Below are positions 1 through 17,717 of a stretch of DNA of 38,830 nt, piece by piece. The notes beneath the pieces were generated by a model. The model ran no database searches. It was not told the origin of the DNA and saw only the letters and a program-made list of their open reading frames with translations. The translations under genes were made by a program, and so were the position numbers. Source of the stretch: Deltaproteobacteria bacterium (lineage in GTDB: Bacteria > Desulfobacterota > Desulfobacteria > Desulfobacterales > C00003060); NCBI GenBank assembly GCA_003647275.1, contig QMMN01000022.1:1-38830 (forward strand), written 5' to 3'. The first letter of the stretch is position 1. Every line of letters starts with the position of its first letter.

Positions 1-350
1 ACGTAGGGTAAAACCAGTTCCTTCACATTTGACAGAACCTTTTCTTCAAGCTCGGTCTTGTCTTCCTCCCTCCGTCTTAGCAAGACTTTCAAGGCGGTAT
101 TCACTTCCTCAAGATTACGAGCCTGGGCCTTCAATGCTGCCTCTCTCTTCCGGAGGGTCTCCTCGGCCCGTTTGCGCTCTGTTATTTCTTCGTTGAGTTG
201 CTCTGCATAGATGATGGATTGGTCATAAGCAACCCGCAGCCGGCGAATACTCTCTCGCAGCGCCTCCTCGGCGCGCTTGCGCTCAACGGATTCTTTTTCC
301 AACTGTTTGACCGTTTTCACCAACTCTTCATGGGTGGGCTTTTTCCGCAT
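1..350 (-). CDS. LuxR-type transcriptional regulator, N-terminal part (cut by window edge)
   Basis: The gene starts at ATG 350-348, preceded by GGAGGG seven bases upstream, and runs off the left edge, so only about 116 residues are visible. They are almost entirely charged helix. Two copies of the linker motif that usually flanks PAS domains are present (ERKRAEEALRES near residue 22 and ERKRAEETLRKRE near residue 56), followed by NTALKVLLRRREEDKTELEEKV and then VKELVLPY. That last block matches what I recall from a deltaproteobacterial family that ends in a LuxR-type helix-turn-helix, but the DNA-binding domain is outside the window, so the call is family-based inference. No PAS domain separates the two linkers. 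A sigma70-like promoter on the same strand lies about 280 bases upstream. The alternative is a sensor kinase or other PAS-linked protein. Confidence 0.6.
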   Translation of the reverse strand, partial: MRKKPTHEELVKTVKQLEKESVERKRAEEALRESIRRLRVAYDQSIIYAEQLNEEITERKRAEETLRKREAALKAQARNLEEVNTALKVLLRRREEDKTELEEKVLSNVKELVLPY

Positions 351-626
351 TAGCACACCCTCCACAGGGCTATTGAACCAAAAAAGGCTTCTATGCGCCG
401 GACACAATGAGGCGTTCCCCCTGATAATGGAGGCATATAACTCGCGCCTTTAGTTACAGAACATAGCCCGGCTGGTATAAACGTTTGGCAGGCAATATGA
501 AAAATATAGGAATGAAGGCATAACATCCATCCTCCTTTACGGCTGGGGCATGAAAGCCTTGAGAAGGGCGACATCGGATGGACGAACTATGCTGCTTAAT
601 TATAACAAACTTATTTTATAATGTTT

Positions 627-655
627 TTTATATACATAAACGCTTGCCTTGTCAA
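627..655 (-). promoter_or_regulatory. sigma70-like promoter for the LuxR-type gene
   Basis: On the minus strand TTGACA (655-650) is followed by a 17-base spacer and TATAAA (632-627). It faces the LuxR-type gene that starts at 350, which would have a leader of about 270 bases. The -35 region sits in GCTTGACAAGGC, a 12-mer also found at the promoter near 7219. Confidence 0.5.
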
Positions 656-1019
656 GCCAAAACAAACCACCCTAAACCCGAGACTCTGAAAAATGCGGCG
701 ATCATTTTGTCGAAACCCGTGTATTCACGTTTCTGGTTTCATAAAGATACATTTTGGTTAAGGGCTCTTAATCGTTATGAAATGCCGGCGGCCTTGAGGG
801 GCACCCTTTCTATGCAAGGGGTTGGATACAATCCCGCACAGGTGCACTTATTCTCATGATGCTTTTTTTATGGGGATACAGACTCACCTCTTTATGTTTG
901 GTGCTATCTTGCGTGAGGCCCAAATTTGAGGCTTTGCGTGTTTTTTTCGGATATTGCTTCTGAATGGGCCTAAGCTGCCATGTCTGCGAATATGTATTAT
1001 AGCATCAGCCGTTAAGATC

Positions 1020-1048
1020 TTGACATTTAGTTAAAGTTTATGTATGAT
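1020..1048 (+). promoter_or_regulatory. sigma70-like promoter for the cytochrome-sensor operon
   Basis: TTGACA (1020-1025), a 17-base spacer and TATGAT (1043-1048) give a near-consensus promoter about 80 bases upstream of the cytochrome start. It is the only strong promoter seen ahead of the five plus-strand genes that end at 6085, so it probably drives all of them. Confidence 0.65.
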
Positions 1049-1129
1049 ATTATTTTATGGTGGACATTTTCGAATCGAAAATAAGACTTGAGGCCCTTGA
1101 AAAACAGGCCGTGGCCCTGGGTGCCTGAA

Positions 1130-1666
1130 ATGGTCAAACCTGCGTTCACCATCATCTTTATAGCCTTACTCCTCGAGACAATTTTCTCTTTCCTGGTAAC
1201 CTGTCCGTTCCAACTGGGTACCTGCGACGCCCTCGCTGAAGTTGAAGAAGAACCTTACCATATTGGCAACAGGAAGTGCCGCCTTTGTCATTTTGAATAT
1301 TTTAAGGAATGGGAAAAAGACCCTCATGCTAATGCCTTTGCCCGGCTGGGGAGGATGAAAAACAACCCATACTGTTTAAAGTGTCATACGACGGGCTATG
1401 GCCAACCGCAGGGTTTTGTCAGTGAAAAGATTACGCCGGAGCTAAGGGGGGTCCAGTGTGAGGCCTGCCACGGGCCTGGCAGCAAACATAAAGACAACCC
1501 TTACGACAAAGGGGCCTTCCCGATTGGAAGAAGGATAGATTATCAAAGGGTCTGCATCAAGTGTCATGATCGCAACTGGACCCCGGAATTCGACTATGAC
1601 AAATACCGAAAACGAATTGAACACAGAATCAAGCCCAAAGTAGAAAAAGGGGCGCCTTCAAGATGA
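1130..1666 (+). CDS. tetraheme cytochrome c, cytochrome c554-like
   Basis: This is an exported electron carrier or heme sensor. From ATG 1130 the protein has 178 residues. It opens with a signal peptide or signal anchor (about residues 1-35, hydrophobic core IIFIALLLETIFSFLV). Four CXXCH heme sites follow: CRLCH, CLKCH, CEACH and CIKCH. The blocks CLKCHTTGYG and GVQCEACHGPG are typical of the cytochrome c554 (NrfB/c-prime-like) multiheme family. The frame is also open back to a TTG at 1088, but that would put a proline-rich hydrophilic stretch ahead of the signal sequence, so 1130 is preferred. The stop codon overlaps the next start as ATGA, which implies translational coupling to the helical sensor protein. 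Electron partners are unknown. Confidence 0.85.
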   Translation: MVKPAFTIIFIALLLETIFSFLVTCPFQLGTCDALAEVEEEPYHIGNRKCRLCHFEYFKEWEKDPHANAFARLGRMKNNPYCLKCHTTGYGQPQGFVSEKITPELRGVQCEACHGPGSKHKDNPYDKGAFPIGRRIDYQRVCIKCHDRNWTPEFDYDKYRKRIEHRIKPKVEKGAPSR

Positions 1667-2538
1667 AAAAGACCGGGGTGGTTAAAACCGCCTTTAGTAT
1701 CTCCACTGCCCTTTCTCTCCTTATCGGCATCTTCATCTTGTTCAACGTCAAGACCATCCCACAGTACACTCGTATAATCGATACTGGAAAGCAGATACTA
1801 GAGTTAGTATTAGAGATGGAATTAAAAGAAAACAGTTATCTCCTTTACCACCGAAAGGACGCGGTAGACGATCTTAAAGATAAGATCAGCAAGTTAAGAA
1901 AGCTACTCTCCACCTATGAAAAATCAACATTCGCTGAAAAGCAAGCAGAGTTCTTCAGGCTTGCCGACTGGGAAGAGGCCATTAACCTGTATGACCGATT
2001 GTTTGATCAGTTTGTCCTCTACCATCAAGCCGTTGAAAAGAACATTGCTGAGATAAGAAATTTAGAAAAAAGTATTCTGGCGGTCATATTTTCGAAGATG
2101 AATCCCGAGCGCGGCATCATTGCCTTGCAGGAGATTCGCATACACGAGAAGGGCTACTTGCTTTACCGAAACTATCCCGAACCTCCGGATGAACGCTCTT
2201 TTCAGGATAAGCGCAAGGAAGCAGTTTCAAATCTTTTGATGTGGGCACAGAAAGATAAAAGGATTGAAGAATTGATGGACAAAGACAATCAGCTGTTTAG
2301 CGAAATTATAAACAACTACGAAAGTCAAGATAACACCCTCCTTGCACTAAAGAGGGAAGGTGGGAAAATAAGGAACATAGCCGAGAAGTTTTTGGAGGAA
2401 GGAAATAAAAGATTATACATCACCTTTCGTCGTTGTACATTTCTATGCACCGTCCTCTTGATTATGTGGCTGATCACAGCCACTGCCATTGTCGCTACCA
2501 GTGTCGCTGACAAGCTCGGCACCAAAGACAAGGGGTAA
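1663..2538 (+). CDS. stand-alone membrane sensor protein, HBM-like helical bundle, no output domain
   Basis: The protein has 291 residues. There is one membrane helix near residues 8-28, a mostly helical extracytoplasmic region of about 230 residues, a second membrane helix near 260-283, and only about a dozen cytoplasmic residues after it. The periplasmic part contains two related blocks, KENSYLLYHRKDAVDDLK and HEKGYLLYRNYPEPPDE, spaced as in the helical bimodular (HBM) sensor domains of chemoreceptors. In such proteins a HAMP and signalling domain would follow the second helix. Here there is none, and a HAMP histidine kinase is encoded 10 bases downstream. The start overlaps the cytochrome stop (ATGA). 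It could be a sensory subunit that acts on the kinase through membrane contacts. The HBM assignment is pattern recognition rather than a profile match. Confidence 0.6.
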   Translation: MKKTGVVKTAFSISTALSLLIGIFILFNVKTIPQYTRIIDTGKQILELVLEMELKENSYLLYHRKDAVDDLKDKISKLRKLLSTYEKSTFAEKQAEFFRLADWEEAINLYDRLFDQFVLYHQAVEKNIAEIRNLEKSILAVIFSKMNPERGIIALQEIRIHEKGYLLYRNYPEPPDERSFQDKRKEAVSNLLMWAQKDKRIEELMDKDNQLFSEIINNYESQDNTLLALKREGGKIRNIAEKFLEEGNKRLYITFRRCTFLCTVLLIMWLITATAIVATSVADKLGTKDKG

Positions 2539-2548
2539 TTTTTGAGAT

Positions 2549-4465
2549 ATGGTATCCCTAAAAGACAGGGGCATCCGGACCAAGATTATAGCGTCTATGG
2601 TTGTCTTGCTCGTGTTCATTCTCTTGCTCTCCTTTTGGGTCAGCTATATGCACGAACAAAAGAGCCTCCTGACCAACATGCAGGACAACGCAATCATCTT
2701 GAACCGTGCACTGATTATCGGCATCATTAACCAAAAAAGTATTGCCGAAAAGGTGAACCTGCAAGCATTGGTGGAAGAATTATCGCTAACCGAAGGGGTT
2801 TTCGGTGTATGGGTTATTGATAACCATTCGCGAATTACATCCGCCACATTCAGGGAGCAAGTGGGGGAAGTCGCATCTTGCCGTTTCATTTCGGAGGCCT
2901 TACAAGAGGGCTATTATGTTAGCGGATTTGACACGAAGATGGGAGAGGAGGTTTACACGGCAGTTTATCCCCTTAAGAAAGGGAATAGGATTTTTGGGGT
3001 GCTGGAGGTTGCCTTTGAATTGCGGGAATATCTGCGAGCTGCTCCCAAGGATCGGAAACAACTCCTCAGCCAGATGAAAAAAGACAGCCGCATCATGGCC
3101 GAATCGCTCAGTTACAGTATCAAAAATATGCGGGATGTAAACGAACTGATCCATATTCAAAAATTAGTAGACAGGTTAACCACAGAATCCGAAATTATTT
3201 CGCGGATCATGATTGTCGACGATAACAGCCGGATCATCGCCTGCAATGACCTGAACAGGGTAGGCATGATTGCCGATGACAAAGGGGTCAGGGCAATTAT
3301 CAATGGGGCGGAAATCTACACCCGGCTGTTTCCTCGTCAAAAAATCTATATGGTCGATATGCCGTTAAAAATCGGTGATGAATTTAAAGGCGTGGTCAGT
3401 ATTGGTTATGATGCAACGAATTATTATACACATTTGTCTGAAATCTTTCACTTTGGCCTGTTGATTTCCGGTATGGGTGTTCTCATGGGCATATTGCTTT
3501 CCTTTCAAGTGGCCAACCCCATTATTACGCCCATCCAGCGCCTGACAGAGGTGACAAAAAAACTGGCGGCAGGAGATCTCTCCCAACGCGCCACTGTAAG
3601 TTCCAAAGATGAGGTTGGCGCTTTAGCCAGGGCCTTCAATCGGATGGCTGCGGATCTGTCACGCTCCAAGGAGGAAATAGATCAATATAGCAAAACCCTT
3701 GAGGAAAAGGTACGGCAACGCACACGGGAGCTGGAAATTAGTAACCAGGAATTAAGGAGCATTCAAAATGAGTTGATGGAAGCCAACATAGTCAAGTCAG
3801 AATTGTTGAGCATCGCCTCTCATGAGCTTCGTACCCCCCTGACCACCCTTTTGGGATACAGCGAGCTCCTACTAACCAGACCCTTGACGGAAAGTCAGAA
3901 AAAGGAGTTTTTGGGCTTTATCAATGAGGAGTCGATCCGCCTGAGCAAGATCGTCGATGACCTTCTAGATATCTCCCGGATAGAATCCCAACAGGTTGTT
4001 GGATTTGTGAAAAAACCTGTGCAACTGGCCGAGGTTTTGTTGAAAAACATTAAGTTTTATTCTGGAGTAGAGACAGGTCACCGCATTATCACAAATATAA
4101 AACAAGATTTACCCCTTGTAAGTGCAGATGGCGAGAAGATTGGCCAGGTGATAAAGAACCTTATTGATAATGCAATTAAATACTCTCGAGGTGGCGATAT
4201 TATGTGTAGAGCCTCTGTAAAGGATGAGATGGTCTGGATTGATATTCAAGATCAGGGCATTGGAATATCAGAACAGGACCTTCCTCGTATCTTTGATAAG
4301 TTCTTTCGGGTAGAGCGCAAGGAGACAGCACATATTAGCGGCACAGGCCTTGGGTTGTCTATCGCAAAATATATTATAGAGTCTCATGGTGGCGAGATAG
4401 AAGTAGAAAGCCAACTGGGCAAAGGGACAACAATCGGTTTTGGACTCCCTATTTTTAAGGATTGA
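2549..4465 (+). CDS. HAMP sensor histidine kinase with double extracytoplasmic sensor
   Basis: This 638-residue transmembrane kinase probably phosphorylates the response regulator encoded next. It has a membrane helix near residues 12-34, an extracytoplasmic region to about 300, and a second helix near 300-322. A HAMP domain (about 322-375) and a coiled coil (EEKVRQRTRELEISNQEL) follow. The HisKA domain carries phosphoacceptor His425 in SHELRTPLTTLLGY. The ATPase domain has an N box near 541 (NLIDNAIKYS), DQGIGIS near 568 and GTGLGLSIAK near 597. Two similar segments in the sensor, VWVIDNHSRITSAT and IMIVDDNSRIIACN, suggest tandem cache or PAS-like halves. The gene begins 10 bases after the previous stop with no clear ribosome site, so it probably relies on coupling. 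Its stop overlaps a possible TTG start of the regulator. Confidence 0.9.
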   Translation: MVSLKDRGIRTKIIASMVVLLVFILLLSFWVSYMHEQKSLLTNMQDNAIILNRALIIGIINQKSIAEKVNLQALVEELSLTEGVFGVWVIDNHSRITSATFREQVGEVASCRFISEALQEGYYVSGFDTKMGEEVYTAVYPLKKGNRIFGVLEVAFELREYLRAAPKDRKQLLSQMKKDSRIMAESLSYSIKNMRDVNELIHIQKLVDRLTTESEIISRIMIVDDNSRIIACNDLNRVGMIADDKGVRAIINGAEIYTRLFPRQKIYMVDMPLKIGDEFKGVVSIGYDATNYYTHLSEIFHFGLLISGMGVLMGILLSFQVANPIITPIQRLTEVTKKLAAGDLSQRATVSSKDEVGALARAFNRMAADLSRSKEEIDQYSKTLEEKVRQRTRELEISNQELRSIQNELMEANIVKSELLSIASHELRTPLTTLLGYSELLLTRPLTESQKKEFLGFINEESIRLSKIVDDLLDISRIESQQVVGFVKKPVQLAEVLLKNIKFYSGVETGHRIITNIKQDLPLVSADGEKIGQVIKNLIDNAIKYSRGGDIMCRASVKDEMVWIDIQDQGIGISEQDLPRIFDKFFRVERKETAHISGTGLGLSIAKYIIESHGGEIEVESQLGKGTTIGFGLPIFKD

Positions 4466-4473
4466 GACTTAAC

Positions 4474-4839
4474 ATGAAAAAGATATTAATTGTCGATGAT
4501 GAGGAAAAAGTAAGAAGGCTGGTAGAAGTCACGCTTTCTATAGGCAAGTTTGATATCCTGCATGCCTCGTCAGGCGAAGAGGCCTTAAAGATAGCCCGAG
4601 AGAGTAAGCCTGATATCATGTTATTAGACATTATGATGCCAGGCAAATTGGATGGCTTTGATGTGTGCAGGCTTCTCAAAAAAGACCCTGATATAGCGAA
4701 TATTTACATTATTATGCTGACGGCTAAAGGACAAAAAGTTGACAAAGAAAAAGGGCTTGCCTTAGGCGCGGACGATTATTTTGTGAAGCCATTTAGCCCT
4801 ATGGAGTTAATCGATAAGATAGACAGAGTCCTAGCCTAA
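4474..4839 (+). CDS. single-domain response regulator (CheY-like receiver)
   Basis: From ATG 4474 this is a 121-residue receiver domain with no output domain. The acidic pocket is D8/D9, the phosphoacceptor is D52 (LLDIMMPG), the switch threonine is T83 (LTAK) and the conserved lysine is K105 (VKPF). An in-frame TTG at 4462 overlaps the kinase stop as TTGA and could also be used, which would add four residues. The gene follows its probable kinase directly. Without a DNA-binding or enzymatic domain it must act through protein contacts or as a phosphorelay intermediate, so the system's transcriptional output, if there is one, must lie elsewhere. The convergent soluble kinase at 6089-6946 is one possible further partner. 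Confidence 0.92.
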   Translation: MKKILIVDDEEKVRRLVEVTLSIGKFDILHASSGEEALKIARESKPDIMLLDIMMPGKLDGFDVCRLLKKDPDIANIYIIMLTAKGQKVDKEKGLALGADDYFVKPFSPMELIDKIDRVLA

Positions 4840-4855
4840 AAACGGGGGAAAGACC

Positions 4856-6085
4856 TTGCAGAAGATATGGTATGCCGTCATTATCATTTTGATTGGCCTT
4901 GGTGTTTATAGCCTCTATGGCTATCTTCGCTTAGAATCACCGCCGATCCAAGAAGAAGCGGTTTTGAAGACACCGCCGCCTGCGCATGTGGCTCCAACCC
5001 CTGGGGTAACCCCCAATGAGATCGTCATCGGTTCGTCTTTGGCCCTCGGGGGACATGCCAGCTTTTTGGGCACCCAATACCTCCATGGTGCCATGTGCCT
5101 GATCAACCAAATAAACAAGGAGGGCGGCATCCACCATCGTAAGATCACGGTGATTGCCTATGATGATGGATACGACCCGCCACAATGTGTGGCCAATACA
5201 GAGAGGTTAATCCACAAGGACAAGGTCTTTTGCCTCTTCTGCTATGTGGGGACACCGACCAGCGTAAAGATTATAGACATTGTGGAAGAGGCCAAAATCC
5301 CGCTTCTGGGTCTCTTCACCGGGGCGGATAAACTACGCTTTCCTTTTCGGCATTATATCTTTAATGTCCGATCCTCTTACTACCAGGAGACCAACGCGGT
5401 TGTCCGTTACTTTGTGGAAGAGAAGGGGCTGCGCCGAATAGCAGTATTCTACCAATACGATGACTATGGTTTTGACGGGCTTAAGGGTACACAGATTGCC
5501 TTGCAAAAATATGGTCTTTCTCCAGTGGCCACGGGGAGCTTTATAAGGGGAACCTTGGAGATTGAGGATGCCCTGGACAAGATCCAGGCGTCTCGAGCCC
5601 AAGCAGTCATCATGATAGGTACCTATAGTCCTTGTGCCAAGTTTATCAAAGAGGCCAGGGCCAGGGGGTTTAATCCTTTATTTCACAACGTCTCTTTTGT
5701 AGGGGCAGATAAGCTGGTTCAAGAACTTGGTGATGCTGGCGAGGGGGTCCTGATCACCCAGGTTGTACCTCCACCTACGGAACGGATTCTTTTGCCTGCC
5801 ACAGAGCAATATTCTCGCCTTTTAACGCAATATTATCCGCAGGATGAACCGAACTTTGTAAGTTTTGAGGGCTTTATTAATGCCAGGATTTTGATCGAAG
5901 CCTTGAGGCGGGCAGGACGAGATATTACGCGGGAAGGTTTTATCCGGGCATTAGAATCTATTAGGGAACATTACGTAGGAATTGGGGCGGTTATTAACTT
6001 TGGGCCGCGGGATCACCAGGGGATAGATGACGTATACCTGACTGAGGTCAGGAACGGAAAACTCCAGCTTCTATTGTACAAGTAA
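4856..6085 (+). CDS. membrane-tethered branched-chain-type periplasmic binding protein
   Basis: The predicted start is TTG 4856, with GGGGGAA seven bases upstream and no better in-frame start. The 409 residues begin with an uncleaved-looking membrane helix (about 4-24), then a proline-rich tether (PPPAHVAPTPGVTP). The rest is a type I periplasmic binding fold of the Leu/Ile/Val (Peripla_BP_6) family, with characteristic segments EIVIGSSLALGGHASFLG, GGIHHRKITVIAYDD and VGTPTSVKIIDIVEEAKIP. Such proteins normally deliver amino acids or related ligands to an ABC permease, but no permease or ATPase gene is nearby. As the last gene of a sensor operon it more likely presents a small ligand to the sensor proteins. 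The ligand cannot be predicted. The gene ends 3 bp from a convergent kinase gene. Confidence 0.8.
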   Translation: MQKIWYAVIIILIGLGVYSLYGYLRLESPPIQEEAVLKTPPPAHVAPTPGVTPNEIVIGSSLALGGHASFLGTQYLHGAMCLINQINKEGGIHHRKITVIAYDDGYDPPQCVANTERLIHKDKVFCLFCYVGTPTSVKIIDIVEEAKIPLLGLFTGADKLRFPFRHYIFNVRSSYYQETNAVVRYFVEEKGLRRIAVFYQYDDYGFDGLKGTQIALQKYGLSPVATGSFIRGTLEIEDALDKIQASRAQAVIMIGTYSPCAKFIKEARARGFNPLFHNVSFVGADKLVQELGDAGEGVLITQVVPPPTERILLPATEQYSRLLTQYYPQDEPNFVSFEGFINARILIEALRRAGRDITREGFIRALESIREHYVGIGAVINFGPRDHQGIDDVYLTEVRNGKLQLLLYK

Positions 6086-6088
6086 GAA

Positions 6089-6946
6089 TTAGGATGCCGG
6101 CAGGCATATCTTAAATTGGGTACCCTCATTAGGTGCACTTGTTACATCTATCATCCCTCCGTGTTTCTCTATAATCCCATAGCATATAAATAGGCCGAGA
6201 CCCGTGCCGCGGCCTTCACCTTTTGTTGTGTAAAACGGCTCAAAGACATGCTCCAAGTTCTCAGGGGGTATGCCGCAACCGGTATCTTCAAACAGGATTT
6301 CTACGTAAGGCTGTTTTTTTGTTGATTTTTCCGGATGATAACAGGTGGCAATGCGCAAGGTACCACCCTGCTCCATGGCCTCGATGGCATTGAGGGTCAG
6401 ATTCGTGAAAACCTGTTCAATTTGAGTATCATCTATCCAAAGTTTTGGCAGGTTATGTTGGAAGTTTTTTTCGACCTTTATCTGGCTCTTTATAAATCTA
6501 TATTTCAACAAGAAAAGGCTCTGTTCCAAGATCGCACTGATATCTTTAGGTTCTCTTTTTTCAGGCTTCTTACGCGATAGGTCGAGAATCTGTTGCAACA
6601 TGGAAGAAGCCTTCATTAAGCTTTGTTCTATTAACTCCAGGCGTTCAACCACCCCTTCCGAAAAGTTGGCCCTATCCATGAGTAAGAGAGACAAATGACC
6701 CGCCGCCGGGGTTAGTATGTTGTTAATCTCGTGCGCAATACCAGCTGCCAGTTCCCCCAAGAGGGTGATCCTGGCCGAACGCTCCAGCTGTTGTTTGGTT
6801 AATTCTAATTGCCTCTCCTGCTCCTTTCTTTCCATAAAGACCCTGGCCAGGTCTTTAGCGTAAAGCAACGCCTGTTCTTCAATGGCTTTCAAATTATTTT
6901 CTAAGTTTTTCACAGGAGGTTCCGGTGTTCTTCTCTTTTCTGTCAT
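6089..6946 (-). CDS. soluble NtrB-type histidine kinase without a sensor domain
   Basis: This 285-residue protein has no membrane segment. A coiled coil (about 15-60) leads into a HisKA domain with phosphoacceptor His72 in AAGIAHEINNILTPAAGH. The HATPase domain has NLTLNAIEAM, EDTGCGIP and GTGLGLFICYG. The arrangement resembles the NtrB/ZraS class of kinases stripped of its sensing part, so it probably takes its input from a partner protein. It is encoded convergently with the binding-protein gene and ends 3 bp from it, so the two transcripts must overlap. A sigma70-like promoter lies upstream at 7196-7224. No clear ribosome site precedes ATG 6946. Its response regulator is not obvious; the CheY-like protein at 4474 is one possibility. 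Confidence 0.85.
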   Translation of the reverse strand: MTEKRRTPEPPVKNLENNLKAIEEQALLYAKDLARVFMERKEQERQLELTKQQLERSARITLLGELAAGIAHEINNILTPAAGHLSLLLMDRANFSEGVVERLELIEQSLMKASSMLQQILDLSRKKPEKREPKDISAILEQSLFLLKYRFIKSQIKVEKNFQHNLPKLWIDDTQIEQVFTNLTLNAIEAMEQGGTLRIATCYHPEKSTKKQPYVEILFEDTGCGIPPENLEHVFEPFYTTKGEGRGTGLGLFICYGIIEKHGGMIDVTSAPNEGTQFKICLPAS

Positions 6947-7195
6947 CGGATCTACAGACGTTCAATCATGGGTTTGCTGTATATATAGGACTTAGTTCAC
7001 TTGGCTAACGACGGGGTGACATTAAACGTCGCCTGGTGACGGTACAGGAAGGAATTGTATGTACTCAAGCCATCAGACCTCCGGAGCGGAGCGCTCAACC
7101 TTTGAGTTGCTCCTGGGTTGAGATGACCCTTTAAGGGTTAGATCGACCCGCAAAAATATGCCGAATGGAATATAATGCATTTACTCTATTACATT

Positions 7196-7224
7196 TCTAT
7201 AGGCTAACAAAATCGCCTTGTCAA
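7196..7224 (-). promoter_or_regulatory. sigma70-like promoter for the soluble histidine kinase
   Basis: On the minus strand TTGACA (7224-7219), a 17-base spacer and TATAGA (7201-7196) form a plausible promoter about 250 bases upstream of the kinase start at 6946. The -35 context GCTTGACAAGGC is identical to that of the LuxR-type gene promoter. Confidence 0.45.
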
Positions 7225-7265
7225 GCTCCAAATCCCATAGCCCAAAGGGCTTCCTTTGAAGCTCC

Positions 7266-7281
7266 CTGCAGCTTGCTGCAG
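7266..7281. repeat. palindrome CTGCAGC-TT-GCTGCAG
   Basis: A perfect 7-base inverted repeat with a 2-base centre lies about 60 bases downstream of aspS. It is not followed by a T-run on the minus strand, so it is not a convincing intrinsic terminator. It resembles REP-type hairpins, but only one copy occurs in this window. Confidence 0.4.
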
Positions 7282-7340
7282 AGAATGCGCTCGCTTTTGC
7301 GGTTCAAAATTATCTTTTTTAATAAACCCTTACACCCATG

Positions 7341-9107
7341 TTATCCCTTCAAGGTCCGCACCTTCAAGGAGAGTTCCTCAAGTTGGGCGGCCGAGGCCTC
7401 GCAAGGGGCGCCCGTAAGAAGACAGGCCGCCTTTTGAGTCTTTGGAAAGGCGATGACATCCCGGATGGACGCCTGTTGAGCCATTAGCATAACGAGCCTG
7501 TCAAACCCAAGCGCGATCCCGCCATGGGGGGGAGCACCAAAATCAAGGGCTTCTAGCAAAAAACCAAACTTTTTCTCGTAAGTTTCTCGATCAATGCCAA
7601 GGGCCTCAAATACCCTTTCCTGAACCACGCGTTGGTGGTTCCGGATGCTACCGCCGCCGACTTCGGCTCCGTTCAGGACAAGGTCGTAGGCGCGGGACCG
7701 GACAGCAAGGGGGTCTTCAGTGAGCCATTTCATGTCCTGCTCAAGAGGAGCTGTAAAGGGATGGTGCAGGGCGACATACCGTTTTTCATCCTCGTCATAT
7801 TCCATCAGGGGGAACTCTGTCACCCATATAAAGTCATATTGGTCACGTTCCAACAAACCGAGTTTATGGCCCAGGTAACTTCGAAGATGCCCTAAGGCCT
7901 CATTTACCACCTTGAGTTGATCGGCGATGAAGAAGACAAGGTCGCCAGGCACCATATCAAGCCTTTGGCGTAAAGATTCCTTTTCCGAATCGGAAAAGAA
8001 TTTGGCAATGGGTGATTGCCAGGCATCGGGACGGACTTTGATCCAGGCCAGGCCTTTGGCCTTGTAAATGGCCACAAAGTTTGTGAGGTCGTCGATCTCT
8101 TTTCGGGAAAAGTCGATGCATCCTTTGGCGTTTATGGCCTTAACCCGCCCCCCGGCCCTGATCACATTAGCAAAAGCTTTGAACTCGGTATTTGCAATAA
8201 TATCAGAAATATCCTTCAACTCCAGGCCAAATCGAAGATCCGGCTTATCCAGGCCGAACCGGCCTGTGGCCTCCTCATAGGTCAGACGCTTGAAGGGACG
8301 CTTTAGCTCGATACCAAGGACCTCTTTAAACAGGGCCGCCATCATCCCTTCGGTGACCTCCATAACATCATCTTCCGTGACAAAGGACATCTCCATGTCG
8401 ACCTGGGTAAATTCTGGCTGCCGGTCTGCCCTAAGGTCTTCGTCCCGAAAGCACCGAACAATCTGGTAGTATCTTTCAAACCCCGCCAGCATTAAAAGCT
8501 GCTTAAAGATCTGAGGCGATTGCGGCAGCGCATAGAATTGCCCTGGATTGATCCGGCTTGGTACGAGGTAGTCTCGGGCGCCCTCCGGTGTACTTTTAGT
8601 CAAGAAGGGGGTTTCAATGTCGAGAAATCCCAACTCGTTTAGATAAGAACGAACGACTTGGGCTGCCCGGTGTCGGAGCATAAGGTTCTTCTGAAGTACC
8701 GGACGACGCATATCAAGATAGCGGTAACGAAGACGTATGTTTTCAGATACTTGTGCATTATCTTCCAAAACAAACGGCGTCGTCTGTGACTGATTCAAGA
8801 TCCTCAACTCTGAGACCATCACGTCAATCTCACCGGTTTTTAACGTCGGGTTGATCATTCCCTCAGGCCTGAGCACCACGACCCCCCGAACTGCCAACAC
8901 AAACTCGTTTCGAATGGCATGGGCCTTCTGGTGAACTTCTTCATTGACCTCTGGGTTAAAAACCACCTGGGTAATCCCCTCGCGGTCGCGAAGATCCACA
9001 AATATCACCCCACCATGGTCCCGCCGGCGCTGAACCCACCCCATCAGGACCACTTCTTCCCCTACATCTTTAGCCCTCAATGCTGAACAGTGATGGGTCC
9101 GTTTCAT
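7341..9107 (-). CDS. aspS: aspartyl-tRNA synthetase, probably non-discriminating (aspartate--tRNA(Asp/Asn) ligase)
   Basis: This class II synthetase charges tRNA(Asp) with aspartate. From ATG 9107 it has 588 residues, the usual bacterial length. It has an OB-fold anticodon domain ([21 protein letters not shown]), motif 1 ([20 protein letters not shown]), motif 2 ([16 protein letters not shown]), the bacterial insertion domain and motif 3 ([10 protein letters not shown]). Sixteen more in-frame residues extend to an ATG at 9155, but MKRTHHC is the normal N-terminus and fixes residue numbering with known enzymes. Residues His31 and Gly83 are those reported for the non-discriminating enzyme of Pseudomonas aeruginosa, so this protein may also make Asp-tRNA(Asn) for amidation. 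It lies downstream of hisS on the same strand with a gap of about 130-180 bases. Confidence 0.96.
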
Positions 9108-10762: not shown

Positions 10763-11182
10763 GTGCCCAAAAAATATGAATTTATTGAGCATACAGCGGA
10801 TCTGGGGTTCATGGCCTACGGTGCCAGCATAGAGGAGTTGTTTGCCCATGCGGCCGAGGCCTTCTTTGAAGCCATTGTGGGGCTTGAAAGCGTTGAGGAA
10901 AGGATAGAGAGGGCTATAGAGGTGGAGGCATACGCCGTGGACAATCTGATGGTCAGCTGGCTGGGTGAACTCCTTTATCTGTACGATACTGAAAGGTTGG
11001 TCTTTAAGCGTTTTCAGATCAAATGGATCGAGGATAACCACCTGCAGGCGAGCGTGTACGGAGAAGTCTTAGATCCTGCTCGCCATGAGATCAAAACAGG
11101 GATCAAGGCGGTCACCTATCATCAACTGTATGTAAAGGAAAGAAAAGGAGGCTGGGAAGCCCGGGTTATATTTGATATATAG
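10763..11182 (+). CDS. archease, RtcB-activating protein
   Basis: Archease speeds up guanylylation and turnover of the RNA ligase RtcB, which is encoded next. The chosen start is GTG 10763, with AAAGGGG five bases upstream. It gives 139 residues, the family's normal size, beginning PKKYEFIEHTADLGF. The open frame continues upstream to 10670, but those residues do not resemble archease. Visible family features are the HTADLGF block with its conserved Asp, an acidic helix (SIEELFAHAAEAFFEAI), the LLYLYDTERLVF segment and the C-terminal AVTYHQLYV...VIFDI with the second conserved Asp. A weak promoter candidate (TTGCGC, 17 bases, TATGAG) lies at 10670-10698. The gene is separated from rtcB by about 240 bases containing an inverted-repeat element. 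Confidence 0.9.
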   Translation: MPKKYEFIEHTADLGFMAYGASIEELFAHAAEAFFEAIVGLESVEERIERAIEVEAYAVDNLMVSWLGELLYLYDTERLVFKRFQIKWIEDNHLQASVYGEVLDPARHEIKTGIKAVTYHQLYVKERKGGWEARVIFDI

Positions 11183-11213
11183 ATCTAACCGGGACAAGCC
11201 GGAACCAAAAAGA

Positions 11214-11346
11214 GGTGCCTAAAGTGTGAAGTGCCTAAAGTGAGCTAAAGTTAAGGAATGCGCCTCCGGCGCAACACATTTGAAGTAGGCAAAATACCTC
11301 AACTTTAGGCATTTTAGGCACTTTAGATCACTTTAGATCACTTTGT
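11214..11346. repeat. inverted-repeat element made of CTAAAGTG units (copy 1)
   Basis: The left arm repeats GTGCCTAAAGTG and ends in GCTAAAGTT at 11252. The right arm starts AACTTTAGGCATTTTAGGC near 11300 and continues with direct repeats of ACTTTAGATC. The arms are complementary with small mismatches, and the centre carries a GC-rich palindrome (GCGCCTCCGGCGC). A 24-base segment at 11229-11252 recurs with two mismatches at 23791-23814. The element sits between archease and rtcB and is probably a small non-autonomous dispersed repeat. Confidence 0.7.
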
Positions 11347-11408
11347 ACTTGTTCGTTTTCTGTCACCAAAAAACACGAATTTTATCGCCAAGGCACCAAA
11401 GAATTCAT

Positions 11409-11416
11409 GGAGGTGA
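11409..11416 (+). promoter_or_regulatory. strong Shine-Dalgarno site deciding the rtcB start
   Basis: GGAGGTGA lies five bases upstream of ATG 11422. It would be inside the coding sequence if translation began at the in-frame ATG 11407, so it argues for the downstream start. Confidence 0.75.
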
Positions 11417-11421
11417 CTTCC

Positions 11422-12870
11422 ATGTCAACCGATATAGAGATACAAAAACTGGATGATTTTCGCTGGATTATTCCCAAAAAGGGGAAAATGAAAACCGAGG
11501 GGCTGGTCTATGCGGATGAGCGGATGCTGGCTGTCATCAGAAAGGACGCAAGCCTTGAGCAGGTGGCTAATGTGGCCTGTCTCCCGGGCATCGTGGGCCG
11601 CTCTCTGGCCATGCCTGACATCCACTGGGGATATGGATTTCCTATCGGCGGGGTTGCGGCCTTTGATATGGAGGATGGCATTGTATCTCCTGGCGGGGTT
11701 GGCTACGACATCAACTGTGGTGTTCGTCTTTTGCGCTCCGAGCTCGATGCCAGAGATATAAGGGACCAGATACCGACTCTGGTGAATGCCTTATTCAGGA
11801 ATATTCCTTCAGGTGTTGGATCTCGGCGCAAAGACCTTAAACTGTCAGCTCATGAGATGGAAAAAGTGCTCATAAAGGGAGCCGGGTGGGCCGTTTCTCA
11901 TGGGTATGGCAGCCAAGAGGACATTGAACATATTGAAGCAAGGGGTTGTATCCCTGGCGGTAATCCAGAGTATATTTCTCAGAGGGCATACACACGCGGT
12001 AAGGATCAATTGGGAACCCTGGGCTCGGGCAATCATTTTGTAGAAGTCGGTTACGTTGAAGAGGTTTATGACGAGGCGGCTGCCACGGCTTTATCCTTAC
12101 GCAAAGGGCAGGTCACCGTGATTGTGCACACAGGTTCAAGGGGGCTCGGACACCAAGTCTGTGACGACTACATCAAGGTGCTGCTAAAGGCTTCAACCAA
12201 ATACAAGATAGACTTGCCGGATAAACAGCTGTGCTGTGCTCCCATTGCATCCAAGGAAAGCCAGCAGTACCTTTCGGCTATGGCCTGCGCGGCTAATTTT
12301 GCCTTTTGCAACCGCCAGCTGATTACCCACTGGGTTCGAGAGACCTTTCAAGACGTGTTTCAGGCAGGGCCCCGGGAACTTGGGCTCCATCTCGTTTATG
12401 ATGTCTGCCACAATATAGCCAAAGTGGAGGAGCACGAGATAGACGGCAAAACCCGCAAGTTATGTGTACACCGTAAAGGGGCCACCAGGGCCTTCCCGCC
12501 TCATTCTCCATTTATACCGGAAGACTACAAAGAAGCAGGGCAACCTGTGTTGATTCCCGGAGACATGGGCCGGTATTCTTACGTATTGGTGGGCACTGAC
12601 ACCGCGTTTAAAGAGACCTTTGGAAGCACGTGCCACGGGGCTGGTCGCGTTATGAGCAGGCACCAGGCACAAAAGGCTGCCAGGGGACGTTCAATTGTCC
12701 GTGAGCTTGAAGACCAGGGGATCTATGTCCGGGGAGCTGCCAAAGGGACCATCAATGAAGAGATCTCTGAAGCCTATAAGGATGTGAGCGATGTGGTGAA
12801 TGTAGTGCACCAGGCAGGGATCGGCAAGAAGGTGGCCAGGCTAAAACCGATGGGAGTGATAAAAGGATAA
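11422..12870 (+). CDS. rtcB: RNA-splicing ligase RtcB (3'-phosphate/5'-OH ligase)
   Basis: RtcB joins RNA 2',3'-cyclic phosphate or 3'-phosphate ends to 5'-OH ends using GTP and Mn2+. From ATG 11422 it has 482 residues, close to the intein-free archaeal enzyme. Metal and nucleotide sites are visible: GGVGYDINCGVRLL, GTLGSGNHFVEV, VIVHTGSRGLGHQV, HRKGATRAFPPH and STCHGAGR, in which His405 would be the guanylylated residue. The C-terminus has the usual DVVNVVHQAGIGKKVARLKPMGVIKG. The order archease-rtcB suggests the pair works together in RNA repair or tRNA ligation. No rtcA cyclase or RtcR regulator is nearby, unlike in Escherichia coli. Nothing indicates an intein or truncation. Confidence 0.97.
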   Translation: MSTDIEIQKLDDFRWIIPKKGKMKTEGLVYADERMLAVIRKDASLEQVANVACLPGIVGRSLAMPDIHWGYGFPIGGVAAFDMEDGIVSPGGVGYDINCGVRLLRSELDARDIRDQIPTLVNALFRNIPSGVGSRRKDLKLSAHEMEKVLIKGAGWAVSHGYGSQEDIEHIEARGCIPGGNPEYISQRAYTRGKDQLGTLGSGNHFVEVGYVEEVYDEAAATALSLRKGQVTVIVHTGSRGLGHQVCDDYIKVLLKASTKYKIDLPDKQLCCAPIASKESQQYLSAMACAANFAFCNRQLITHWVRETFQDVFQAGPRELGLHLVYDVCHNIAKVEEHEIDGKTRKLCVHRKGATRAFPPHSPFIPEDYKEAGQPVLIPGDMGRYSYVLVGTDTAFKETFGSTCHGAGRVMSRHQAQKAARGRSIVRELEDQGIYVRGAAKGTINEEISEAYKDVSDVVNVVHQAGIGKKVARLKPMGVIKG

Positions 12871-12922
12871 TCGATTTTAAAACTCTCACAAAATTATGTG
12901 TTTAAATGGCAAAGGAGATTTT

Positions 12923-13372: not shown

Positions 13373-14275
13373 ATGAAGCCCGGAAAAAGCCTCTTGTCTC
13401 ATGTGAAAACCTGGGTATGGACTATCGTCATAGTAGTAAGCATTCTCATCGGGTGTGCCTTTGGAGCTGATCTTCGGGAAATCAAGGAAAGAGGGTCTCT
13501 GCGACACCTTGGAGTTCCTTATGCTAATTTTGTCACGGGAAGCGGAGACGGACTGGATGTGGAATTAGTAAAACTTTTTGCTCAACATTTGGGCGTGAGA
13601 TATGAATACGTTAAGACTTCCTGGAAAGATGTGATCGGGGACTTGTCCGGGAAAAAGGTCAAGCCTAAAGGTGACGATATTGAGATCCTCGGCGACGTAC
13701 CCGTTAAAGGTGATATTATCGCCAATGGCTTGACCATCCTTCCTTGGCGTGAGAAGATTATAGATTATTCCACTCCAACCTTCCCGACCCAGGTCTGGCT
13801 GGTCGCGCGAGCGGATTCGGCCATGAAACCGATCAAGCCCAGCGGCGATATTAACAAGGATATTGCTGCAGTAAAGGCGATGCTCAGGGAGAGGAGCGTC
13901 CTGGGAAAGGCTGATACCTGCCTTGACCCGGCCCTTTACAGCCTGAAAAAGGTCGGAGCTATGGTCAGGTTATTTAACGGAAGCCTTAACGCATTGGCTC
14001 CCGCTGTCATCAACCGCGATGCCGAGGCAACTATCCTGGACCTACCTGATGCCCTGATCGCCCTGGAAAAATGGCCCGGTAACATTAAAGTCATCGGTCC
14101 GGTTTCTCCCATGCAAAATATGGGTTATGCGTTCCCCAAAACATCCCCGCGGTTACGGGATACCTTTAACCAGTTTTTCAAACAGTGCAGGAAGGATGGA
14201 ACGTATTTGCGCCTCATCAAAAAATACTACCCGGCTGTTTTTAGGTACTACCCTGAATTCTTTGAGGAAAAGTAA
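13373..14275 (+). CDS. family 3-like extracellular solute-binding protein, possible lipoprotein
   Basis: From ATG 13373, with GGAGG four bases upstream, the protein has 300 residues. The N-terminus is a signal sequence with hydrophobic core VWTIVIVVSILIG. The sequence LIGC fits a lipobox, so it may be lipid-anchored, although cleavage after CAFGA is also possible. The mature part resembles amino-acid or glutamine-type binding proteins (SBP family 3): DLREIKERGSLRHLGVPY, GLDVELVKLFAQHLGV, then DIIANGLTILPWREKIIDYS and a C-terminal FFKQCRKDGTYLRLIKKYYP. No ABC transporter gene is adjacent. The next gene, 33 bases on, is a large membrane histidine kinase. This suggests a sensing role, possibly ligand presentation to that kinase. 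The ligand is unknown. Confidence 0.8.
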   Translation: MKPGKSLLSHVKTWVWTIVIVVSILIGCAFGADLREIKERGSLRHLGVPYANFVTGSGDGLDVELVKLFAQHLGVRYEYVKTSWKDVIGDLSGKKVKPKGDDIEILGDVPVKGDIIANGLTILPWREKIIDYSTPTFPTQVWLVARADSAMKPIKPSGDINKDIAAVKAMLRERSVLGKADTCLDPALYSLKKVGAMVRLFNGSLNALAPAVINRDAEATILDLPDALIALEKWPGNIKVIGPVSPMQNMGYAFPKTSPRLRDTFNQFFKQCRKDGTYLRLIKKYYPAVFRYYPEFFEEK

Positions 14276-14308
14276 GGCGGAGAAACGAGGCTCCACAGCA
14301 GTAGAGTA

Positions 14309-17026
14309 GTGGATATGCGATCAGTTTGGACGCTGCCAAAAAGGAGAAATTTCGCTCTTGTTGTCGTAAGCGTTGCCCTTGTTACGTACATCGGCTTCCT
14401 GCTTGGTGCGAATTATCTGTCACAGCTCGAGCTGCAGGAATCCGCTCTGGAACAATTAAGGCAGGACACGGAAAAGCGCGCAACAGCAGTGAGCTACTTT
14501 TACTCCGAGCGCAAAAATGATCTAAAGGACCTCGCGGCAAGCAGGGAAATCTCTATATTTTTTGAAAATAAGGCCCTCGGGATGTCAATGGAATATGGGT
14601 TGCGGGCCAGCTTGTTTGGCATAGCTCAGAGTTTTGAGCGTCTTTTGGAGGACAGGAAGCTTGACGAAGATAGGATCTATACCCGGATCGTTTTTGTCGA
14701 CAGCGACGGGAAATTACTTATCGACAGCCAACCGATAAACGCAAAACGAGGACATGAGTGGGACTGGAAAAAGTTCCTTGCCCCTGAAAGCTTGGCCGCA
14801 ACCATTATCGCCAAACATGATAGGGGGAGGTCGAGGGTGATGGTTTCCATTCCCTATTTTTTCAAGAACAAATATACCGGGCAAATCATTGCATGGATCT
14901 CAGCTCAGACCCTTTACAATCATCTCGTCAAGGTGGCGGGAGCCTCTTCGAAACGGTCTGTTTTTATCATTTCCGGGAAAGATCAATTCCACTTTCCAGC
15001 AGACGTAGAATCAGAAGCCGCCTTTTCCGGGCTGTCTGACCTTGGCAATATAGAAATCGGCAAAACCCATCGGTTTGAGGCAGTCCGTAAAGACGGGGCC
15101 AAGGTGAACATGCTTGCTGTTCGGGTTCCGGTCAATGATACGCCGTTCTCCCTGGTCACCGTTTTGCCAGTCACCGAGGTGTTTGGCCGTGCAGCCCCAC
15201 AGCACTTGCTCTTGGCGATGGGGGTATTAGCGCTGATCCTTCTGAGCGGAACGGCTATCGTCTTACGGATCAACACACAGAACCTGGTTCTTCATGCGCG
15301 ACTCAAGGAGGCATCTGGTAGGAAGCGAGAAATTGAGGAAAAAAATCAGCAGCTCGAGAAGGAAATCGCCGAGCGCAAACGCGCCGAGGATTTACTAAAA
15401 AGGACTCACGATGAGTTAGAAAGACGGGTTGAACAACGAACTGCGGAACTTGCAAAAGCCAATAAAGAATTGCGGATTGAGATCACTGAGCGCAAGCGGG
15501 TCGAGGAGGCGCTGCGGGAAAGTGAGGAACGCCACCGCTTGTTGTTGGAATCATCGCCTGACCCTATCGTGGTGTACGATATGGAAGGAAAAGCAACTTA
15601 TATCAATCCCGCTTTCGTTCAAACCTTTGGTTGGTCGCGTGATGAGTTCCTTGGGAATCGTATAGATTTTGTTCCTGAAAAAAATTGGCCAGAGACAAAA
15701 GCTGCCATGGGTATGCTGAGAGGTGAAAAGGTTGAATCATTTGAAACCAAGTGCTTCACCAAGGATGAGAAACTGTTGGATATCCACCTTAGTTCTTCCA
15801 TCTTCAAGGGCAAGGATGGACAACCAGCCGGAAATATAGTTGTGCTCCGAGATATCACCGAAACAAAGCGACTCGAAGCTCAATTGCATCATGCTCAAAA
15901 GATGGAGGCCATTGGGACTCTTGCGGGAGGAGTGGCTCACGACCTCAACAACGTCTTAAGTGGGCTTGTAAGCTATCCTGATTTGCTACTGATGGAAATC
16001 CCCGAATACAGCCCTTTAAGAAAGCCCATTTTAACCATACAGCAGTCAGGAGAAAGAGCTGCAGCGATTGTGCAGGATCTGTTAACTTTAGCAAGAAGGG
16101 GAGCTGCTATTACAGACGTGATAAATTTAAATGATATTATTTCTGATTATTTCAAAACTCCTGAGCATATAAAATTAGAAGCATTGCACCCCCATGTTCA
16201 ATTTGAAATGAATCTCGAAAAAAACTTGCTAAATATTTTGGGATCTCCGGTTCACTTATCAAAAACCATCATGAATTTGGTCTCTAATGCAGCAGAGGCC
16301 ATTCCTTATGGAGGAAAGGTTTTCATATCCACAACTAACCGATATATCGATTGCCCAATAAAGGGTTATGACGATGTACAAGAGGGCGATTATGTCGTTT
16401 TGAGCGTATCTGACACTGGAATAGGCATCTCTCCTGATGACTTAAAAAAAATATTTGAGCCTTTCTATACCAAAAAAGTGATGGGAAGAAGCGGAACAGG
16501 CTTGGGCATGGCAGTGGTGTGGGGAACAGTAAAAGACCACAAAGGATATATTGATGTTATAAGCACTGAAGGAAAAGGAACAAGATTTGAACTCTATTTT
16601 CCAGTAACCAGACAAGAGCCAGTCGACAAACAGACCTCTGTATCAATTGAACATTATATGGGTAGTGAGACAATTTTAGTCGTAGATGATGTGGAAGAAC
16701 AAAGACAAATTGCATCCCAGATGTTAAGCAAATTGGGATATTCTGTCAGAGCCGTTTCAAGTGGCGAAGAAGCAGTTGAATATATGAAGAACAATCCAGT
16801 AGATTTATTGGTTTTAGATATGATCATGGACCCTGGGATTGATGGTCTTGACACATACAAAAGGATTCTCGAATTTCATCCAGGGCAAAAAGCAATCATT
16901 GTAAGTGGATTTTCTGAAACAGAACGTGTCAAAGAAGCTCAAAGATTGGGGGCTGGAGCCTATGTAAAAAAACCATACATTTTAGAAAAAATAGGGTTAC
17001 ATGTCAGAACAGAATTAGACAAATAA
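14309..17026 (+). CDS. hybrid sensor histidine kinase with PAS and C-terminal receiver
   Basis: This 905-residue membrane protein starts at GTG 14309 (ATG 14315 is the alternative). A membrane helix near 15-37 is followed by a cache-like extracytoplasmic domain (about 40-295), including IYTRIVFVDSDGKLLIDSQP, and a second helix near 300-322. Next come a long coiled coil with two ERKR-type linkers (about 325-410), a PAS domain (about 410-525) and HisKA with His544 in GGVAHDLNNVLSG. The HATPase has SDTGIGISPDD and GTGLGMAVVWG. The receiver has ILVVDD, phosphoacceptor D837 and a conserved lysine in VKKPY. The kinase and receiver half is clearly more AT-rich than the sensor half. It follows the binding protein and probably signals its ligand. 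No DNA-binding output is adjacent. Confidence 0.92.
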   Translation: MDMRSVWTLPKRRNFALVVVSVALVTYIGFLLGANYLSQLELQESALEQLRQDTEKRATAVSYFYSERKNDLKDLAASREISIFFENKALGMSMEYGLRASLFGIAQSFERLLEDRKLDEDRIYTRIVFVDSDGKLLIDSQPINAKRGHEWDWKKFLAPESLAATIIAKHDRGRSRVMVSIPYFFKNKYTGQIIAWISAQTLYNHLVKVAGASSKRSVFIISGKDQFHFPADVESEAAFSGLSDLGNIEIGKTHRFEAVRKDGAKVNMLAVRVPVNDTPFSLVTVLPVTEVFGRAAPQHLLLAMGVLALILLSGTAIVLRINTQNLVLHARLKEASGRKREIEEKNQQLEKEIAERKRAEDLLKRTHDELERRVEQRTAELAKANKELRIEITERKRVEEALRESEERHRLLLESSPDPIVVYDMEGKATYINPAFVQTFGWSRDEFLGNRIDFVPEKNWPETKAAMGMLRGEKVESFETKCFTKDEKLLDIHLSSSIFKGKDGQPAGNIVVLRDITETKRLEAQLHHAQKMEAIGTLAGGVAHDLNNVLSGLVSYPDLLLMEIPEYSPLRKPILTIQQSGERAAAIVQDLLTLARRGAAITDVINLNDIISDYFKTPEHIKLEALHPHVQFEMNLEKNLLNILGSPVHLSKTIMNLVSNAAEAIPYGGKVFISTTNRYIDCPIKGYDDVQEGDYVVLSVSDTGIGISPDDLKKIFEPFYTKKVMGRSGTGLGMAVVWGTVKDHKGYIDVISTEGKGTRFELYFPVTRQEPVDKQTSVSIEHYMGSETILVVDDVEEQRQIASQMLSKLGYSVRAVSSGEEAVEYMKNNPVDLLVLDMIMDPGIDGLDTYKRILEFHPGQKAIIVSGFSETERVKEAQRLGAGAYVKKPYILEKIGLHVRTELDK

Positions 17027-17039
17027 CACTTTGTGCCCT

Positions 17040-17394
17040 TTTCCCCTTGAGAACGAGAAACGCAAGCTTGCCTGGCCCGCAGCTTCGGCGTATTTTCGTG
17101 ATCTTGCTGGCTGCATCATGAGTACCGGAGATGATGTAGATGGCAATACGGCCTCCCGCAACCTGGTCATTTGTGAGATAAGATAGAGCCCTATGAATCC
17201 TTCCAATCACCATCGTACAGGTCGACAGCTATGAGGATAAACAAAACACCCTCGGCGATAGCCAGCTCCACTAGGTTCTCGAATGCCCGGAGGGTCGCAT
17301 AACGGAGCGCTTCGACCGGTGCACCTTCGTAATGCTCAAGCTTCAACAAAGGACTATCCAGGTGAATATCTGCGACATGAAGGAAGGTGAACAC
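17040..17394 (-). pseudogene. decayed 5' fragment of an SbcD/YhaO-like DNA exonuclease gene
   Basis: On the minus strand a GTG at 17394, preceded by AGGAG, opens FTFLHVADIHLDSPL, then APVEALRYATLRAFENLVELAIAEGV and LIAVDLYDGDWKD. This is the N-terminus of the calcineurin-type metallophosphoesterase family that includes SbcD and YhaO. The normal AGDLYDGDW has become AVDLYDGDW. Translation then stops near 17191. The next expected motifs continue in other frames: GLYLISQMTRLREA in one and IYIISGTHDAASKITK in another, corresponding to the family's SGNHDAAS. Everything after about residue 115 is missing, against some 400 residues normally. So this is a frameshifted, 3'-deleted remnant next to the end of the hybrid kinase gene. 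No partner ATPase gene (SbcC/YhaN type) is present. Confidence 0.75.
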
Positions 17395-17656: not shown

Positions 17657-17685
17657 TTGTTAAGATTAAAAGATCTCCCTATCAT
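17657..17685 (+). promoter_or_regulatory. sigma70-like promoter of the penicillin-binding protein gene
   Basis: TTGTTA (17657-17662), a 17-base spacer and TATCAT (17680-17685) lie about 30 bases upstream of the ATG at 17718. The -10 is close to consensus and the -35 matches at four positions. Confidence 0.45.
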
Positions 17686-17717
17686 GCCCCTGAGGAATTT
17701 GATATATTGAGAGCGTT

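Follow-up and report, generated by a model that had tools for sequence, protein, structure and literature searches.

In the E. coli TorT/TorS/TorR system, a binding protein, a helical-bimodular (HBM) receptor domain, a kinase, a receiver and a multiheme c-type cytochrome (TorC) are brought together in one circuit. According to the passages of PMC11727998 that deal with these proteins, TorT activates TorS and TorC binds the periplasmic domain of TorS with a KD of about 1 µM; inhibition by TorC also appears in a portion of PMC8534201. The binding protein PstS drives the HBM chemoreceptor CtpL, and in LuxP-LuxQ and XylFII-LytS, both named in the same excerpts (PMC6321045), a binding protein informs a sensor kinase. 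The sCache_heme sensors use c-type heme for extracytoplasmic sensing and include stand-alone modules (excerpts of PMC12889525). Here we describe an operon from a Deltaproteobacteria bacterium (GCA_003647275.1; Desulfobacterales, C00003060), located in the 38,830-nt stretch of contig QMMN01000022.1 that was analysed as a whole (hereafter, the window). For this operon, TorT/TorS/TorC and CtpL-PstS serve as precedents and not as evidence. It appears to encode a two-component system with accessory proteins that has apparently not been described before: literature searches, which covered titles and the openings of abstracts and left subscription literature largely outside their scope, found no description of such an operon, and sensor and kinase terms led to no passage on such a system in the accessible text of PMC10553843 and PMC5539420. 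Our reading is that its five genes encode one periplasm-facing sensory complex in which two inputs would reach a single kinase, and we give the wiring proposed below an even chance of being right.

The operon is made up of five open reading frames (ORFs) that follow each other on the forward strand at 1130-6085, in the order cyt-sens-HK-RR-SBP, with intergenic gaps of -4, 10, 8 and 16 nt. The first of these is a 4-nt overlap (ATGA) of cyt and sens, and a 4-nt overlap recurs at this junction in many of the related loci. The features of the operon are the following:

1020..1048, + strand: sigma-70-like promoter, TTGACA-17-TATGAT, with 11 of 12 consensus matches
1130..1666, + strand: cyt, secreted tetraheme c554-type cytochrome, 178 amino acids (aa) from the ATG at 1130 (PF13435, four CxxCH motifs, match to 1bvb)
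1663..2538, + strand: sens, predicted stand-alone HBM-like membrane receptor without output domain, 291 aa (AlphaFold2 model, VIA-align, ATGA overlap with cyt)
2549..4465, + strand: HK, histidine kinase, transmembrane (TM) segment-sCache_3-Cache_WalK-TM-HAMP-HisKA-HATPase, 638 aa (Pfam, hydropathy)
4474..4839, + strand: RR, single receiver domain without output domain, 121 aa (Pfam)
4856..6085, + strand: SBP, binding protein of the Peripla_BP_6 family with an N-terminal TM anchor, 409 aa (Pfam, hydropathy)

Hydropathy profiles display one N-terminal hydrophobic segment in cyt and in SBP, two in sens (9-27 and 260-278) and in HK, and none in RR. The original prediction, made from the letters of the window, had proposed a cytochrome, a two-helix sensor, a HAMP kinase, a single-domain regulator and a membrane-tethered binding protein behind one strong promoter. 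All five genes are present and tightly spaced, and the promoter is also borne out: it is the best of 18 sites found at 600-7400 on both strands (10.9 expected, standard deviation 3.4), and an alignment of 14 upstream regions, read by eye, puts its TTGACA in one column in 11 of them, the exceptions being loci L124, L125 and L127. The TTG at 1088 that was listed as the start of cyt is probably not the true one; since the relatives align from the ATG at 1130, this codon is the probable start. The contig of the operon belongs to a 3.0-Mb draft genome and, because this genome has dsrA, the source organism is probably a sulfate or sulfite reducer.

The comparison of genomes strongly supports the view that the five genes form one unit, because their order is conserved and they co-occur phyletically. 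In a sample of 389 genomes from the order, searched with profiles for sens, cyt and the first 330 residues of HK, sens (E ≤ 1e-100) and cyt (E ≤ 1e-40) were detected in the identical 15 genomes, a result with a probability of 10^-26.6 under an independence of genomes that does not hold, since the carriers are related and fall into five genera. The profile of the HK ectodomain (E ≤ 1e-30) recovered the same 15 genomes and G020, in which the kinase lies 68 nt from the start of its contig. The phylum-level samples (395 genomes for sens at E ≤ 1e-15 and 317 for cyt at E ≤ 1e-35) added a single carrier, G425, which belongs to another order and is the only one among the 6 genomes searched there. All five genes stand on one strand and in one order in 14 of the 19 loci that were read: the window, L011, L013, L017 and L018 from the window's family, L122 and L124 from family f64, L125-L128 from family f24, L014 and L015 from named relatives, which are metagenome-assembled genomes (MAGs) labelled Desulfobacterales, Desulfobacteria or Deltaproteobacteria, and L130 from G425. 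Within this set, cyt is clipped by the contig end in L015 and L128. As for the incomplete loci, L016 and L021 come from separate contigs of a single genome, L019 and L123 are truncated by contig ends, and L012 is discussed below; partial sets also occur on short contigs, with HK-RR-SBP in G020 and SBP in G014. The original prediction had named genomic co-occurrence as a way to check it, and the distribution described here does not refute it. Contig breaks aside, none of cyt, sens and the double-Cache kinase was found without the other two in the genomes searched, so that the three could be used as a marker gene set.

The same distribution could be explained by a horizontally moved island whose five genes are held together by linkage only. 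The spread is indeed patchy, as sens was found in 8 of the 22 genomes of the genus and the operon in 1 of 6 in the order of G425. Yet, the flanking genes differ between families, and order and tight spacing are kept in L130 at identities that go from about 36% (36-40%) for sens through 48% for HK, 67% for SBP (a tandem double in this locus) and 69% for RR to 70% for cyt. An island kept together in this way seems very improbable, and the proteins are considered below as parts of one sensory complex.

The protein encoded by sens has no Pfam match above a cut-off, and the Pfam HBM profile gave none at E ≤ 0.1; two homologues of sens among the methyl-accepting chemotaxis proteins (MCPs) likewise gave none at 0.001. 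Its AlphaFold2 model, built with 10 sequences (mean pLDDT 84.7, pTM 0.71), is all helical (helices 2-62, 65-87, 91-94, 100-145, 148-168, 180-194 and 199-288) and places two stacked helical bundles between two TM helices. In VIA-align comparisons the model matches the malate/succinate receptor domain of McpS (Z 15.4, 2.6-2.7 Å, 208 residues), the V. parahaemolyticus TorS sensor (Z 13.2) and TorS in TorS-TorT complexes (Z 11.2-11.6); because helical bundles can reach a Z near 13, the match to McpS bears the weight and those to TorS agree with it. Unrelated helical proteins appear at lower Z (e.g. IpaD, Z 10.5) and are taken as common helical arrangements. In the order, 39 genomes have a match to sens at E ≤ 1e-3, 24 of them only weak ones (best 3.1e-7). 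The weak relatives translated, from 15 loci and L009, include eleven HAMP kinase-like proteins by eye, a HAMP-repeat-like protein (L115) and two MCPs (L009 and L110); Pfam was run on L009, L110 and L112. The HBM-like fold and the presence of chemoreceptors and, by eye, HAMP kinases among these relatives lead us to read sens as more than an anchor: it is predicted to be a complete HBM receptor without output, with the fold of the TorS sensor. The two-helix sensor without output of the original prediction is right as to the missing output domain and the two hydrophobic segments, but falls short of the complete receptor predicted here. In its modelled periplasmic fold sens resembles McpS; CtpL belongs to the HBM receptors as well and takes its input from a binding protein. 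Sens differs from these chemoreceptors in having neither HAMP nor the MCP signalling part. Its interpretation as a heme protein through the invariant H161 and M146 was rejected, as both residues are replaced in L130 and the protein has no CxxCH. A sequence search of sens against solved structures yielded nothing credible; the top match, at E 0.014, was a designed peptide of 38 residues.

The first gene of the operon, cyt, has the features of the cytochrome c554 family, namely PF13435 (E 1.2e-17) and four c-type heme motifs, which are kept in 18 of 18 orthologues, and it matches the c554 of N. europaea (1bvb, E 2.9e-8). The only histidines outside the motifs that are invariant across the 18 orthologues are H66, H120 and H165; M76 is invariant too. 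Since four hemes face three such histidines, one heme of cyt has no obvious histidine partner. The c554 of N. europaea has a five-coordinate heme, and cyt would resemble it in this respect. The mature protein is 88% identical between loci, versus 40% for the signal region (L130 left out), and is the most conserved stretch among the five genes; the remaining c554-like proteins of the genus are much more distant from cyt (best 6e-27). PF13435 and four hemes are shared with c554-type periplasmic cytochromes, including the conserved carrier that syntrophic sulfate reducers have in common according to part of PMC10553843, and with which cyt could possibly be identical. It differs from them in that, in the genomes searched, its orthologues did not appear without sens and the double-Cache kinase.

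Alternatively, cyt could be the object of the regulation: it would be the controlled carrier, and its unoccupied or heme-free form would bind sens and damp the kinase, as apo-TorC damps TorS, in which case the ligand of SBP would be the sole environmental input. Such a feedback would agree with the similar affinities of apo- and holo-TorC for the periplasmic domain of TorS (KD of 0.94 and 1.03 µM, respectively, in the passages of PMC11727998), and also with the place of cyt as the first gene, its overlap with sens and the conservation of its mature part. Nevertheless, no reductase is found among the five genes, and the fact that none of the 389 genomes showed cyt without sens and the kinase, at the thresholds used, would be odd for a general carrier. 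We consider this feedback rather unlikely and retain cyt as a possible source of signal for the complex.

The remaining components are more conventional in their domains. HK is composed of sCache_3_2, Cache_WalK, HAMP, HisKA and HATPase_c, after which the chain ends (its orthologue in L130 has an extra PAS domain), and RR consists of a receiver domain alone, with the motifs DD, LLD and KPFSP kept in 16 of the 16 orthologues compared. A HisKA/HATPase kinase with a receiver partner has the features of a two-component system, in which HK would phosphorylate RR; since RR has no output domain, the output of the operon would be encoded elsewhere. Unlike in the sCache_heme sensors, the heme is on a separate protein and CxxCH is missing from HK, sens, RR and SBP; HK was rejected as a sensor of this kind for the lack of this motif.

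SBP belongs to Peripla_BP_6 (E 6e-64); among its relatives of solved structure, the probable LIV-binding protein 4kv7 scores highest (E 1.8e-76). Nevertheless, in an alignment of 17 SBP sequences with E. coli LivJ/LivK, the LivJ ligand-contact positions T102, E226 and S79 read G, S and T. These changes make a plain branched-chain amino acid unlikely as the ligand of SBP. Its assignment to a LIV ABC transporter was rejected on account of the same changes and of the absence of a permease from the contig. The first 28 residues of SBP are 75% identical between loci, versus 47% for the linker at 29-50 (L130 left out); unlike the linker, the N-terminal helix is thus about as conserved as the TM segments of HK (67% and 77%), which suggests that it has a role inside the membrane. 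By eye, the SBP paralogues of the genus look like lipoproteins.

The presence of SBP and HK in one cluster, with RR between them and without an ABC permease, is the gene layout of SBP-activated kinase systems. As in LuxP-LuxQ and XylFII-LytS, the binding protein would inform the kinase, here by a putative contact, but a heme protein and a separate receptor have been added. Eight loci with SBP paralogues were read in the genus, and the binding protein directly adjoins a kinase, called by similarity, in 6 of them; L088 is cut by the contig end, no kinase was seen in L090 (SBP 45% identity), and no permease was noticed by eye. Pfam analysis of four of the six kinases found sCache_3_2 above the cut-off in L084, L091 and L086 and below it in L087, and no Cache_WalK at E ≤ 0.001 in any of the four. 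This suggests that SBP goes with sCache_3, and that cyt, sens and the second Cache domain form an added part.

The paralogues also give substance to a third explanation, an ordinary SBP-activated two-component system that controls cyt as a periplasmic electron carrier, with sens as a membrane scaffold or an anti-kinase that receives no ligand or heme input. SBP-kinase neighbours do exist in the genus, and c554-type cytochromes are conserved periplasmic carriers in the syntrophic sulfate reducers of PMC10553843 (in the text accessible). However, such a system leaves unexplained both the joint travel of the second Cache domain, sens and cyt and the HBM receptor fold of sens, and it seems unlikely to us.

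As for the paralogous Peripla_BP_6-kinase pairs themselves, they occupy 8226-12379 in L084, 3050-7383 in L085, 5669-10120 in L086, 7962-12486 in L087, 2684-7144 in L089 and 4367-8679 in L091. The binding proteins of L084, L085 and L091 are fused in tandem (~780 aa), and the pairs of L086, L087 and L089 are each followed by another kinase-like ORF, with a receiver at its N-terminus that was identified by Pfam in L086 only.

With these components, the operon may work like the Tor circuit without belonging to it. The helical receptor, a domain of TorS, is here a separate protein, and HK has two Cache domains of its own; HK is not a hybrid kinase, the receiver being a separate protein (the TorS profile gives 204 bits for a cut-off of 676.5). 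The cytochrome is of the tetraheme c554 type and not a NapC/NirT pentaheme TorC (PF03264 at 20.4 bits, below the cut-off of 24.1), SBP is a Peripla_BP_6 protein, and RR, unlike TorR, has no DNA-binding domain. Membership of the Tor system was rejected given the separate helical ORF and the lack of a hybrid kinase, a TorC-type cytochrome and a DNA-binding regulator.

In the sensory complex that we favor, SBP, tethered by its TM helix, would bind a small ligand and dock on the membrane-distal sCache_3 domain of HK. Sens, a receptor without output of its own, would read the secreted cyt, with the redox state or the heme loading as the quantity sensed, and would pass the signal sideways, via the periplasm or the membrane, to HK, probably to its second, membrane-proximal Cache domain. 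The attribution of SBP to the first Cache domain and of cyt, via sens, to the second is suggested by a comparison of the operon with the paralogue loci, which share SBP and sCache_3, with cyt, sens and the second Cache domain as the addition in the operon. HK would integrate both inputs and phosphorylate the co-encoded RR, which would act as a phosphoryl carrier or as a protein-binding switch toward an output outside the operon. The original prediction had the heme protein and the binding protein inform one kinase; this is plausible in view of the paralogous SBP-kinase pairs and of the TorT/TorS/TorC precedent. A more specific version, in which the receptor is split and sens, acting in trans, responds to a dedicated cyt with one open heme site according to its redox or ligand state and gates a kinase that simultaneously reads the tethered SBP, is possible but doubtful. 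If it were true, sulfate reducers, perhaps syntrophic ones among them, would have a coincidence sensor whose two inputs are the electron-acceptor status and a signal from a nutrient or a partner.

Several points weigh against such a complex. The 15 carrier genomes are related, so that their counts are not independent. The kinase of L012 is interrupted by Ns, and this 20.8-kb locus contains neither RR nor SBP; since the best SBP match in its genome, G001 (75% complete), is only 63% identical, L012 has to be counted as either uninformative or an exception. Without L130, the correlations of distances between genes, which have no housekeeping control, reach only 0.50-0.77, and pairs that involve cyt or RR give the lowest values. 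The best Foldseek E-value for the HBM match of sens is 1.9e-3, with none below 0.001, and VIA-align itself cautions that a common arrangement alone can take helical bundles to the Z near 13 mentioned above. Neighbouring sbp and kinase genes may lack a functional link (PMC11113362, in part), and cyt may be only a co-regulated electron carrier. Separately, the ORFs that lie beyond the Ns in the L012 kinase (10883-12917) resemble those near the paralogous SBP-kinase loci L085 and L091, possibly because of a scaffolding error.

If the five proteins do form such a complex, sulfate reducers would own a kinase in which electron flow through the periplasm is weighed against a chemical ligand, and the heme protein and the receptor would be separable. 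A helical receptor could then serve a kinase from a separate chain, and the operon would make the sensing of a periplasmic cytochrome's state in such cells directly accessible to experiment.

Two other genes of the window border the operon:

6089..6946, - strand: HK2, soluble histidine kinase, convergent to the operon and a frequent neighbour (Pfam)
3..350, - strand: putative LuxR-type regulator, N-terminal part, cut by the contig end (no Pfam match; 66% identity over 116 aa to a GerE/LuxR-HTH protein of L124)

Homologues of HK2 at more than 50% identity, full-length or nearly so, are present in L011, L014, L016, L017 and L122, and an 84-aa piece in L013; none was found at this identity in L015, L018, L124-L128 or L130. 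HK2 was rejected as a core part because of its absence from these many loci. For the LuxR-type gene, L017 has a homologue of full length that lies upstream in divergent orientation, L124 has one beside the operon, L018 shows a match of 54 aa, and the remaining loci scanned show none. Both genes are candidates for the output.

The original prediction had also pointed out that no ABC transporter and no electron-transfer enzyme are nearby. The first statement agrees with the distribution of the PF02653 permease, whose 10 matches in the genome lie on contigs C1, C4, C13 and C54, with none on C22, the contig of the window. The second is true of the identified genes of the window, where not every ORF was searched, but it does not extend to the relatives L011 and L013, where a formate dehydrogenase gene, divergent from the operon, is located about 0.5 kb upstream. 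In L124, a hydrogenase small subunit is encoded about 1 kb downstream, behind the LuxR gene, and in L130 dsrB, dsrA and qmoC (14130-18001) are found upstream on the same strand, from about 3 kb away and behind two other ORFs. The formate dehydrogenase-N alpha gene of L011 (5868-8936) and L013 (5808-8858) is split by an in-frame TGA into two same-frame ORFs 48 nt apart, as expected for a selenocysteine codon. Elsewhere in the window, 11407-12867 encodes a 487-aa member of the RtcB family. The best profile for it, with 961 positions, represents an intein-containing form, and the best stretch matches the C-terminal part of this profile only, consistent with an intein-free relative. Finally, 14309-17023 encodes a 905-aa protein that is probably a hybrid kinase, as its residues 369-904 match CckA/VirA-type kinase profiles.

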